Below, piece after piece: positions 4,054 through 34,147 of a stretch of 36,485 nt of DNA. Position 1 is the first letter of the stretch. Each line of letters opens with the position of its first letter. The stretch comes from Bacteroidota bacterium (GTDB lineage Bacteria; Bacteroidota; Bacteroidia; AKYH767-A; JABDAW01). The stretch is from NCBI GenBank assembly GCA_013288905.1, contig JABDAW010000006.1, positions 4,623-41,107 of the forward strand, read 5' to 3'. The notes beneath the pieces were generated by a model, which was not told the DNA's origin, ran no database searches, and saw only the letters and a list, made by a program, of their open reading frames with translations. Both the position numbers and the translations under genes were made by a program.

Positions 4054-4225
4054 GGTATTAATTCAGATAAAAGAAAAGAGGGGGAAGAAAAAACGTGCCT
4101 ATATAGTATGAGTGATTTTGTGCATTCGATGAGAAATTGACCAAGGAATTTCTGAAGCTTTTATTCAAAAGAGAAATTCTTTTTGGAAATTTTCATTTCT
4201 ACTATTCAATGAAACACTTTGGCAA

Positions 4226-4414
4226 TTCACTCAAAACTTTTGAATGAATCACCAAAACCTTTGGTTATTTACTCAAACGTTTTGATGATTTACCCAAACG
4301 TTTTGGTGGTTCACTCAAAACATTTGGTGGTTTACTCAAACGTTTTGGTGATTCATTCAAACGTTTTGGTGACTCACTCAAACGTTTTGGTGATTCACTC
4401 AAAAGCTTTCAGTG
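4226..4414. repeat. Array 1: nine contiguous 21-bp units, consensus ttcactcaaacgttttggtga
   Basis: Units start at 4226, 4247, 4268 ... 4394 with no phase change; a degenerate tenth follows. AAA...TTT dyad in each. Confidence 0.95.
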
Positions 4415-12057: not shown

Positions 12058-12288
12058 AATACAAATTATAGAAGGCGGAATACAAATTATAGGAAGGGGG
12101 ATGGTATTTATAGGAAGCGGGACGGTAATTACAGGAGAAGGGACGGTAATTATAGGAAGGGGAATGATAATTATAGAAGCTGGGATAATAATTATAGGAC
12201 AGCAGAAAGCAATTATAGAAGGAGGGAAGGACATTATAGAAGGAGGGACAGCAATTATAGAAGGGGGGACAGGCATTATATATTGCAT
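12058..12288. repeat. Array 2: eleven contiguous 21-bp units, consensus ~gacggtaattataggaagggg
   Basis: Units start at 12058, 12079, 12100 ... 12268, all exactly 21 bp. Confidence 0.95.
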
Positions 12289-16876: not shown

Positions 16877-16946
16877 CTTGTCATTCCGTCGAAGGAGGAA
16901 TCCTATTATTATTCCAATAAGATTCCTCCTTCGTCGGAATGACAAG
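16877..16946. repeat. REP/MITE-like hairpin, copy 1
   Basis: cttgtcattccgtcgaaggaggaatc ... gattcctccttcgtcggaatgacaag: 26-bp arms, one mismatch. Confidence 0.93.
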
Positions 16947-17107: not shown

Positions 17108-17125
17108 TTAATTTTTATTTATTTC

Positions 17126-17293
17126 ACTCCTACGGAGTTTTGGAAGTTGTTGTTCCTTGTTTGCTATTAAGATTTCACTCCTTCGGAGTTTTAGAAAGAA
17201 CCTTAAGAATATTTAAAAACTCCGTAGGAGTGAAATCTTAATAGATAATATGCTCCATCATACCATTAAAACTCCTTAGGAGTGACATGATAT
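17126..17293. repeat. Cluster of cactcctacggagt-type palindromes
   Basis: ttcactcctacggagtttt (17125ff), ctattaagatttcactccttcggagttttaga (17164ff), inverted aaaaactccgtaggagtgaaatcttaatag (17215ff), and aaaactccttaggagtgacat. Confidence 0.85.
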
Positions 17294-17297
17294 GGAG

Positions 17298-17426
17298 AAC
17301 TTTACTAAAGCTTTCAACATTAGTAATGTCAGATGCCGAACTCCTTGCCATTAAAGCCTTCCATCCACATCTCTTTCCTGAAGTTCCTGGTATGGAAATT
17401 CTTTTTCTAAGTATAAGAGTGGAAAT
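17298..17426. repeat. Conserved 5' shell module, copy A (precedes array 3)
   Basis: 17347-17407 gccattaaagccttccatccacatctctttcctgaagttcctggtatggaaattctttttc is identical over 61 bp to 25327-25387. Confidence 0.95.
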
Positions 17427-17972
17427 TCTAAGGTTATATGCACTGTATCTAAGGTTAGTTACAGTGTATCTAAGGTTAGTTACAGTGTATCTAAGGTTAG
17501 ATACGCTGTATCTAAGGTTAGATACGCTGTATCTAAGGTTAGATACGCTGTATCTAAGGTTAGATACGCTGTATCTAAGGTTAGATACGCTGTAACTAAG
17601 GTTAGATACACTGTAACTAAGGTTAGATACAGTGTAACTAAGGTTAGATACAGTGTAACTAAGGTTAGATACGCTGTAACTAAGGTTAGATACAGTGTAA
17701 CTAAGGTTAGATACAGTGTAACTAAGGCTACATACGGAATTTGTAAGCAAGCATACAGAAGATGTAAGCACACATACAGAAGATGTAAGCACACATACAG
17801 AAGATGTAAGCACACATACAGAAGATGTAAGCACACATACAGAAGATGTAAGCAAGCATACTGAAGATGTAAGCACACATACAGAAGATGTAAGCACGCA
17901 TACAGAAGATGTAAGCACGCATACGGAAGATATAAGCACACATATTGATAATGTATGCTTACATTATCAAAT
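17427..17972. repeat. Array 3: ~26 units of 21 bp, two unit families in one register
   Basis: 17427-17741: 15 units near tctaaggttagatacgctgta. 17742-17951: ~10 units near tgtaagcacacatacagaaga. Further degenerate 21-mers extend to about 18056. Confidence 0.95.
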
Positions 17973-18181
17973 CTTATGCTTAGACCTTTCATTCTTAACC
18001 TTGGATCCACTATCTCTAACCTTCTTTTTCCTGAACATAAGGTTGCGATTTCAACTATTAAACATAGAAATTCTTGTCTTTACATTAGATAAGAAATTTC
18101 AAGAGATGGTTCTTCAATAAAGATAAGTTTTTAAATCGCCCTGTTTATTGGGAATTCTGGAAAGAACCTTATTTTGAATTT

Positions 18182-18341
18182 AATGACTGTCGGGTTGTAT
18201 AAACCAAATTTTATCTTGTCATTCCGACGAAGGAGGAATCCTATCCATATTTCTATAGGATTCCTCCTTCGTCGGAATGACAAGTTTACACAGTTTTTAT
18301 ACTGTAATTATATTGTTGGTATAAATAACCCGACAGTCATT
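18182..18341. mobile_element. MITE-like nested palindrome, copy 2 of the same hairpin with 15-bp outer inverted repeats
   Basis: Outer aatgactgtcgggtt / aacccgacagtcatt (perfect). Inner 30-bp perfect arms 18215-18244 / 18255-18284 with a 10-nt loop. Confidence 0.82.
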
Positions 18342-22882: not shown

Positions 22883-22989
22883 CAGCAGGAACATCAGATG
22901 CCGAACTCCTTGCCATTAAAGCATTCCAGCAACATCTCTTTCCTGAAGTTCTTGGTATGGAAATTCTTTTTCCAAGTATAAGAGTGAAA
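22883..22989. repeat. Conserved 5' shell module, copy B (precedes array 4)
   Basis: 22912-22972 matches copies A and C at about 57 of 61 positions. The upstream catcagatgccgaactcctt matches copy A. Confidence 0.95.
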
Positions 22990-23325
22990 TATCCAGGCGT
23001 AAGACCTCAACTCTTATGCATAAGACCCCAACTCTTATGCATAAGACCTCAACTCTTATGCATAAGACCCCGACTCTTATGCATAAGACCTCAACTCTTA
23101 TGCATAAGACCTCAACTCTTATGCATAAGACCCCAACTCTTATGCATAAGACCTCAACTCTTATGCATAAGACCCCGACTCTTATGCATAAGACCCCGAC
23201 TCTTATGCATAAGACCTCAACTCTTATACTTAGATATTTCACTCTTATGCCTAAGAGTTGAAGTCTTATACTTAGATATTTTATTCTTATGTATAGTTCC
23301 TCGACTCTTAACCTTGGTTTTTTAA
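22990..23325. repeat. Array 4: 16 units of 21 bp, core unit ctcttatgcataagacc[c/t]c[a/g]a
   Basis: Ten near-identical units 23011-23220 plus degenerate edge units, all 21 bp. Each core unit holds the 12-bp palindrome CTTATGCATAAG. Confidence 0.96.
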
Positions 23326-23443: not shown

Positions 23444-23814
23444 ACCTCTTCGGAAAATAGTAAAGTAAGTATAAAATTTCCTTTTTAACCTTAGTATAAA
23501 ACCTGGCATTGGCTGTAATCCAAACCTTATTCCCTTATTCAATAGGCTTTACTGGGAATTTTGTGGGTAAATGATTATAGCGGGATATTAACCAAAATTT
23601 AAAGGGATAAAATTTAACCACAGAGTACACAGATTAACACAGATTTTGGTCGCCAAGAATCTGTGTTAATCTGTGTACTCTGTGGTTAAATTTTATCCTA
23701 TTGAATCAATGTAAATTAAGCTTCCCACAAAATTCCCAGTAGAACCATTCAATAAGGTAATAAGGTCATCATTGACTCTAATTATTTTCTACTAAGGTTA
23801 TTTTCCGAAGAGGT
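23444..23814. mobile_element. ~370-bp nested inverted-repeat element
   Basis: Layers: acctcttcggaaaata/tattttccgaagaggt; aaccttagta/tactaaggtt; accttattcccttattcaat/attcaataaggtaataaggt (imperfect); actgggaattttgtggg/cccacaaaattcccagt; centre is a 41-bp perfect hairpin. Confidence 0.8.
23605..23698. repeat. 41-bp-arm perfect hairpin (ccacagagtacacagattaacacagatt type)
   Basis: 23605-23645 is the exact reverse complement of 23658-23698; loop ttggtcgccaag. Confidence 0.96.
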
Positions 23815-25277: not shown

Positions 25278-25419
25278 AACTTTACTAAAGTTTCTGACTT
25301 TAGTAAAGTTGAAAGCCGAACTCCCAGCCATTAAAGCCTTCCATCCACATCTCTTTCCTGAAGTTCCTGGTATGGAAATTCTTTTTCCAGGTATAAAAGG
25401 GAAAAATCTAAGGTTAGTT
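25278..25419. repeat. Conserved 5' shell module, copy C (precedes array 5)
   Basis: 61-bp identity to copy A at 25327-25387; also shares the upstream aactttactaaag palindrome pair. Confidence 0.95.
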
Positions 25420-25818
25420 TCCAAGGAACAGTGCATTGTTTCAAAGGAACAGTGCATTGTTTCCAAGGAACTGTGCATTGTTTCCAAGGAACAGTGCATT
25501 GTTTCTAAGGAACTGTGCATTGTTTCCAAGGAACAGTGCATTGTTTCCAAGGAACTATGCATTGTTTCCAAGGAACAGTGCATTGTTTCCAAGGAACAGT
25601 GGATGGTTTCTAAGGAACTATGCATTGTTTCCAAGGAACAGTGCATTGTTTCTAAGGAACAATGCATGGTTTCTAAGGAACTATGCATGGTTTCCGAGGA
25701 ACTATGCATTGTTTCCGAGAAACTGTGTATAGTTTCAAAGGAACTATGCTTAGATGCTAAGGAACTGTGCCTGGTTTCCGAGGAACTATGCTTAGATACT
25801 GTGCATCTAACCTTAGTT
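25420..25818. repeat. Array 5: ~19 units of 21 bp, consensus tccaaggaacagtgcattgtt
   Basis: Units start at 25420, 25441 ... 25777, 25798 with constant period; units become more diverged toward the 3' end. Confidence 0.96.
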
Positions 25819-25910: not shown

Positions 25911-25959
25911 TCGTTGCATCAAAGTAAGTTAAGGGAATAAAGGTTTAAAGGCATAGGGC

Positions 25960-26068
25960 ATAAGGTATAGGGAATAGGGTATAGGGTATAAGGTATAGAG
26001 TATAAGGTATAGAGTATAAACCTTATACCCTATACCTTATACCCTATACCCTATTCCCCATGCCTTAT
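25960..26068. repeat. 48-bp-arm hairpin made of ataggg/ataagg tandem motifs
   Basis: Arms 25960-26007 and 26021-26068 pair with about 3 mismatches; 13-nt loop. Confidence 0.92.
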
Positions 26069-26101
26069 ACCCTATTCCCAAAACACTTACTTTAATTTTT
26101 C

Positions 26102-29994: not shown

Positions 29995-30330
29995 GAAGGC
30001 AATAGAAAATAACTGCTCACATCCTTCTAAACTTTTGGAATTGAGCAAGTAGTATTGATCAGACCATTCCATCTTTGCGGAATGGAGTAAGCGGTACTGA
30101 TCAGACCATTCCCAAACTTCGGAAGGCAGTGATTGATACCGATCATTGTTATCTAAAACATTGGAATGATATGAACAGTGTTTTGTATTGTAGTCCAAAA
30201 CTTTGATTTTAAATGAAAATAACTGACCATTACGGAACACATTTGCGTTTCGCAGTGACCCGTACGACTTAGTCCAAAACAAATTTGCGTTTCGCAGTGA
30301 TCCGTACGACTCAGTCCAAAACACATTTGT
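29995..30330. repeat. Array 6: eight degenerate 42-bp (2 x 21) units
   Basis: Units start at 29995, 30037, 30079, 30121, 30163, 30205, 30247, 30289, each exactly 42 bp. The last two are nearly identical (gtttcgcagtga[c/t]ccgtacgact[t/c]agtccaaaaca[a/c]atttg). Confidence 0.88.
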
Positions 30331-34071: not shown

Positions 34072-34147
34072 AATTAGGAATTACGAATTAGGAATTAGGA
34101 ACCAGGATTCGTAAAGACTCCTAATTCCTAATTTCTAATTCCTAATT
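34072..34147. repeat. 29-bp-arm inverted repeat between exbB and exbD
   Basis: aattaggaattacgaattaggaattagga / tcctaattcctaatttctaattcctaatt, 27/29 pairing; overlaps the exbB stop codon (34142-34144). Confidence 0.92.

Follow-up and report, generated by a model that had tools for sequence, protein, structure and literature searches.

The 21-bp array and its surroundings

The window, i.e. the whole stretch of 36,485 nucleotides analysed here, contains arrays 1 to 5, all with a 21-bp unit length, and two short arrays with a doubled period (Table 1). In array 3, TRF separates a left part at 17427-17735 (period 21, 14.7 copies, 94% matches, 0% indels) from a right part at 17730-17944 (period 21, 10.2 copies, 91% matches, 0% indels). 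Laying out the array as 21-mers phased from 17407, i.e. from the leader end (17406), showed that two unit families follow each other in exact register over the junction, without any indel. This agrees with an earlier note on this DNA, which had given the unit sequences and the junction correctly. Its count of 15 plus about 10 units holds if the junction unit and a degenerate tenth unit are included; otherwise there are 14 + 1 + 9 clear units. The range proposed there for the two families (17427-17972) has to be shortened, as the last ~29 bp (17944-17972) consist of degenerate edge units with a palindrome and do not belong to family 2.

This palindrome at the right edge of array 3 is perfect, with 11-bp arms (TTGATAATGTA-TGCT-TACATTATCAA, ~17945-17971, read off the sequence). 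A second element here, TTATGCTTAGACCTTTCATTC, is related to units at the edges of arrays 4 and 5.

Table 1. Repeat features of the window, with array 3 and its flanks given unit class by unit class
Feature	Position	Strand	Description
Array 1	4204..4403	+	21-bp period, unit ATTCACTCAAACGTTTTGGTG (TRF)
Array 2	12064..12280	+	21-bp period, unit ~AATTATAGAAGGGGGGACAGT (TRF)
Enclosing inverted repeat, left copy	16877..16946	+	70 nt, 86%; itself palindromic; brackets the array-3 region
Leader of the array-3 element	17300..17406	+	Dispersed repeat; its final part is the anchor GGTATGGAAATTCTTTTT
Left edge unit, array 3	17407..17427	+	CTAAGTATAAGAGTGGAAATT; 15-17/21 conservation across arrays 3, 4 and 5
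Family 1, array 3	17428..17721	+	14 units, consensus CTAAGGTTAGATACGCTGTAT and variants; unit near-palindromic
Junction unit, array 3	17722..17742	+	CTAAGGCTACATACGGAATTT; between families 1 and 2 in sequence
Family 2, array 3	17743..17931	+	9 clear units, consensus GTAAGCACACATACAGAAGAT
Right edge, array 3	17932..17994	+	3 degenerate units in register; palindrome and TTATGCTTAGACCTTTCATTC
Trailer start, array 3	17995..18057	+	TTAACCTTGG; leader anchor to trailer exactly 588 bp = 28 x 21
Enclosing inverted repeat, right copy	18215..18284	-	Partner of 16877..16946
Array 4	22972..23307	+	Array-3 leader; core unit TTATGCATAAGACCTCAACTC; anchor to trailer 16 x 21 bp
Array 5	25387..25806	+	Array-3 leader; core unit CAGTGCATTGTTTCCAAGGAA; anchor to trailer 20 x 21 bp
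Two short arrays with 42-bp period (2 x 21)	30025..30329 (30025-30124, 30236-30329)	+	TRF

Further palindromic dispersed repeats crowd these intergenic regions (16877-16946, 18215-18284, 17120-17290 and 23597-23706; CTTGTCATTCCGTCGAAGGAGGAATCC; ACTCCTACGGAGT; AACCACAGAGTACACAGATTAACACAG). Palindromic intergenic elements made of 7- or 14-bp units (ATAGGGT / ACCCTAT; AATTAGG / TCCTAAT) lie at 25948-26079 and 34072-34147. Seven divides 21, yet no connection between these elements and the 21-bp arrays was established. A search for Rfam families, Flavo-1 included, gave no match in the window.

Kinship of the two unit families

Families 1 and 2 are identical at 12 of 21 positions in their actual register, and the best of the 20 other offsets gives 10. 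On its own, this match is modest evidence (P = 0.003 with the register fixed, P = 0.07 when the best of 21 offsets is taken). The junction unit agrees with family 1 at 15/21 and with family 2 at 13/21 positions. In addition, the right-edge unit of array 5, CTATGCTTAGATACTGTGCAT, which stands in the same leader register, matches both family 1 (16/21, P 3e-5) and family 2 (12/21, P 6e-4). The earlier note had read the families as separate expansions of two sequences that were joined in register; the best offset, the intermediate junction unit and the common match to the array 5 edge unit all argue against this. Judged from these alignments, the two families go back to one unit and have since diverged.

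Two families, each internally homogeneous, occur together in 15 arrays genome-wide. The true register was the best of the 21 offsets in 11 of them, and in three of the remaining four both parts are one and the same family displaced by a small indel, so that a small offset brings the match to 17-20/21. A switch of family in register is thus what descent from one array predicts. As the observation that would count against its reading, the earlier note had named a single ancestor changed by point mutation only; this is largely what array 3 presents, and 11/15 two-family arrays agree with it. Since phase is undefined between two unrelated periodic sequences, the expression "in phase" makes sense for array 3 only through the homology of its families.

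Sister arrays share edges and differ inside

Copies of the array-3 leader precede arrays 4 and 5 and are also found on contigs C38, C28 and C1. The leaders of arrays 3, 4 and 5 are 86-90% identical. This leader is shared by arrays 3, 4, 5 and C38/C28 and the trailer by arrays 4 and 5, while the other arrays have different flanks or none that we detected. The TTAACC/CTAACC trailer lies 588, 336 and 420 bp from the leader anchor in arrays 3, 4 and 5, which is exactly 28, 16 and 20 units. The left interiors of the three arrays agree at just 6-10/21 positions and their left edge units at 15-17/21. The trailer units of arrays 4 and 5 match at 17-19/21; the array 3 trailer is less conserved (7-12/21). 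Such edges, kept while the interior turns over, are the mark that concerted evolution through local amplification leaves. The two-family array 3 shows how sister copies could end up looking unrelated, each amplifying a different old unit.

The 21-bp rule across the genus

Our survey covered stretches totalling 431 kb of the source genome (G000), 854 kb of G001 and 102 kb of G002, which represent three species of one genus; G003 belongs to the sister genus. Arrays were counted at a TRF score of at least 100 and a period of at least 9. Across the three species, 228 of 274 tandem arrays have a period that is a multiple of 21 (44/66 in G000, 168/191 in G001 and 16/17 in G002). In the 431 kb of the source genome, TRF reported for the most part periods of 21 (38 arrays), 42 (17), 63 (6), 84 (2) and 126 (3). 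A lag scan of the same sequence gave 44, 40 and 24 regions at lags 21, 42 and 63; nearly all other lags gave about 1-5, the runners-up being lag 54 (11 regions) and lag 45 (8 regions). The 21-bp periodicity of this genome is far above chance. Neighbouring periods (20, 22, 41, 43, 44, 64) make up about 5% of arrays. Among the exceptions are rare 22-bp arrays, CTTGCTAAGGCAAGTAGGTATA, at L018:8168-8332 and L026:16415-16579, which lie in opposite orientation within near-identical flanks.

Outside the genus, multiples of 21 account for 0/1 arrays in the sister genus and 2/17 in 80 other Bacteroidota loci. Sampling of 20 further members of the order revealed no such array in 19 and a single one in G009. 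Deeper sampling showed multiples of 21 in 10/12 arrays of G009 and in 4/5 arrays of G044, a genome reached via locus L077. The trait is therefore patchy outside the genus, and the 21-bp arrays are nearly absent in its sampled relatives. Intergenic examples are L077:3687-3943 (G044, isolate 336R_metabinner_73_sub) and L207:3500-3696 (G009). G009 carries the same ObgE match as isolate palsa_967.

By extrapolation from density, G000, which is incomplete, would contain roughly 300 arrays and G001 about 700. The median length of an assembled array is about 226 bp. Longer ones are probably lost to assembly, because 19 of the 37 sampled contig starts of G001 fall inside arrays, against 1.6 expected. 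With about half of these starts in arrays, the arrays appear to fragment the assemblies of the genus. They are mainly intergenic, and the orientation classes of their flanking genes equal the background, with no orientation bias. Most ORFs that overlap arrays are read-through frames without other support. Terminators or promoters were rejected on the basis of these background orientations and of the promoter- and terminator-like sites around array 3, which occur at shuffled levels.

The step is kept while the letters vary

The earlier note had proposed that spacing, and not sequence, is the conserved property. Our results support this, through the genome-wide 21-bp rule, the whole-unit distances of 28, 16 and 20 between leader and trailer with unlike interiors, and a deficit of indels. 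Different unit families are only slightly more alike than shuffled ones. An exact register from end to end was observed in 112/117 arrays. Comparing successive units in 157 arrays, we counted 4,555 substitutions and 10 indel segments. In the control, which consisted of dispersed repeats from intergenic DNA of these genomes, the numbers were 3,431 and 407 (8.4:1). The fold-difference is approximate, because arrays entered the set for their 21-bp periodicity and one mutational event is counted in more than one pair of units. The direction of the deficit would survive a large discount. Planted 1-bp indels were recovered in 98% of cases. With Ts/Tv at 0.84 in arrays and 0.75 in the control, substitutions follow an ordinary spectrum, and unusual mutagenesis was discarded on this ground.

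Within arrays, identity drops with unit distance, which is local homogenisation. Even distances are favoured, corresponding to higher-order units of 42 bp; in a stricter set, 18/148 arrays show this 42-bp alternation and none the opposite pattern. Orthologous arrays could be compared at one gene pair only, with few reciprocal best hits between the samples (median identity 53%). At this conserved pair, which has arrays in both species (L015:10129-10385 and L148:5819-6189), the 42-bp units are related and apparently inverted relative to the genes. The L148 array has a second in-register family with the palindrome TTCCAGAATTCTGGAA.

A period inherited without function would need no selection: one old dispersed 21-bp minisatellite would slip by whole units while its letters drift. 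The leaders, trailers and edge units common to several arrays fit this scenario, as do the in-register homology of family switches and the concentration of arrays in a single genus. However, indels arising at 8.4:1 would disperse the period well before identity is lost. When we simulated sequence turnover at this ratio, only 15-28% of arrays kept period 21 (72-85% lost it), and a retention of ~90% required 150-450 substitutions per indel; the model is simple, and its adjacent-unit identity (0.93-0.98) lies above that observed. Moreover, G009 and G044 bear arrays of the same period outside the genus, and shuffled sequences resemble one another as much as most families do. We regard simple inheritance of the period as unlikely.

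Discussion

We put a probability of about 60% on array 3 belonging to a minisatellite lineage that evolves in concert under a constrained period and turns over by whole units, with phasing of the DNA helix as the likeliest reason for the constraint. Array 3 would be one member of a system of hundreds of intergenic arrays evolving in concert. Each of them would turn over through local gain and loss of whole units, in steps of 21, 42 or 63 bp, and single variant units would be expanded again and again, changing the interior and leaving old units at the edges. The families of array 3 would be two such expansions, and would share a register because both came from diverged descendants of one ancestral unit. 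The 21-bp step itself would be held against drift, tolerating substitutions and not indels. Of this picture, local homogenisation, steps of whole units, kept edges, the common register, the homology of the families and the deficit of indels are observations.

What constrains the step is probably the phasing of the helix. The lattice, and not the letters, would be read, with equivalent positions returning on one helix face every two turns (2 x 10.5 = 21 bp). The reader may be a candidate nucleoid or insulator-type protein that binds cooperatively or with weak sequence specificity. Spacing that is kept while sequence varies is what we observed, as a helically phased protein-binding lattice should display; we infer that selection acts on helical phase and that a binding factor exists. 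The copy number of HU/IHF-family genes is not raised and equals that of relatives. A broader proposal, which we offer tentatively, is that of a genome-wide DNA lattice in which selection keeps only the two-turn distance, a putative architectural or insulating factor recognises the phased geometry, and the system is gained and lost patchily in the Bacteroidota. Curved DNA with phased A-tract bends was also considered; no 10.5-bp A/T component was found, and the arrays are therefore not intrinsically curved.

The number 21 also corresponds to seven codons, so that arguments from frame and from helix coincide in number. Translation as heptapeptide repeats, with the reading frame explaining the missing indels, would agree with a slight excess of stop-free frames (4.45 per unit against 4.20 under a dinucleotide null) and with one paralogous gene pair of G001 that has true in-frame 42-bp repeats (L121, L164). 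But variable columns are not gathered in one codon position, most ORFs across arrays are read-through frames, the + frame of array 3 is stopped by TAA in half of its units, and the Pfam matches of the array-3 ORF (LPP, Baculo_PEP_C) fall under curated cut-offs; we give this explanation hardly any weight. In the paralogous pair (L121:6325-6649 and L164:8730-9083), a similar N-terminal context, HLM.LKNENAFLKN, is followed by unlike in-frame repeats of 42 bp (14 residues), GIPKDDLGGIQLNK and GIPKNRVGIKNVPE.

Pairing, as DNA cruciform or RNA hairpin, could instead be the conserved feature if units were selected as palindromes. Unit dyads of at least 16/21 occur in 9.6% of families and in 1.6% of control 21-mers, in about one family in four the unit folds better than its shuffled versions (p < 0.1), family 1 of array 3 and array 4 are strongly palindromic, and L148 has an apparent compensatory change, a single case. 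In most families, however, neither a dyad nor a hairpin reaches significance, which rules out pairing as the general rule. Some G002 arrays and the array-3 region are clearly enclosed by inverted repeats, but such enclosure is likewise confined to a minority (8% of G001 arrays against 1.5% of controls). As an account of the arrays, pairing is very unlikely.

A mechanistic ruler is somewhat easier to accept, although still improbable. Here, a lineage-specific nuclease, polymerase or recombination activity would write or duplicate 21-nt steps of local letters, in keeping with the strict step, the locus-specific sequence and the restricted, patchy distribution. Against it, edge units and in-register homology point to inheritance from older arrays and not to fresh writing, and the substitution spectrum is ordinary. 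An Argonaute guide source (21-nt guides) was dismissed, since array-bearing genomes of the order lack the Piwi domain. Writing driven by reverse transcriptase was rejected because G001 has no such enzyme, and mobility of the RAYT/REP type because Y1_Tnp matches in the genus are few and either partial or broken, with no intact RAYT.

The constrained minisatellite lineage that we favour has its closest described counterpart in BrickBuilt of Porphyromonas gingivalis, a minisatellite within a MITE with leader, tail and a 23-nt unit, present in 19 intergenic copies per genome (PMC4596501). Both occur in Bacteroidota, are intergenic and consist of head-to-tail units of similar length without spacers; copies have common leader and tail flanks, and copy number changes by whole units (PMC4596501). 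In contrast to the one 23-nt unit sequence of BrickBuilt (PMC4596501), the 21-bp arrays differ in unit at almost every locus. They also number in the hundreds instead of 19, with flanks from several different dispersed repeats. The TAACTGA heptamer direct repeats of Beggiatoaceae, Cyanobacteria and some Bacteroidetes (PMC4679880) likewise form many intergenic sets per genome with a patchy spread. They are, however, heptamers of fixed sequence that repeat every 7 bp and often lie a short way upstream of a start codon (PMC4679880), whereas the 21-bp arrays are variable in sequence and unoriented.

Copies of the Flavo-1 RNA (RF01705) adjoin several G002 arrays (L114:6071-6637, L130:14-498, L200:3133-3215), and in two cases flank the array on both sides as an inverted pair, a MITE-like arrangement. 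Flavo-1 is a neighbour of these arrays and not the array itself; dispersed repeats and arrays may therefore travel together. A CRISPR array was rejected, as there are no spacers and the units are directly adjacent and drift gradually along the array. In the full-text literature covered by our search, which lies mostly outside the subscription journals, we found no account of a sequence-independent 21-bp array system.

Plasmid iterons are tandem sites about two helical turns apart, conserved in sequence and located at replication origins beside the rep gene. The 21-bp arrays share the step of about two turns but are chromosomal, occur by the hundreds per genome and have no common sequence.

The closest known bacterial minisatellites thus keep their sequence and vary in copy number, whereas the 21-bp system keeps length alone. 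With hundreds of natural replicates per genome and no sequence common to them, it offers an uncommon chance to tell selection on DNA geometry apart from selection on sequence. The arrays let one ask if helically phased chromatin sites that do not depend on sequence exist in bacteria.
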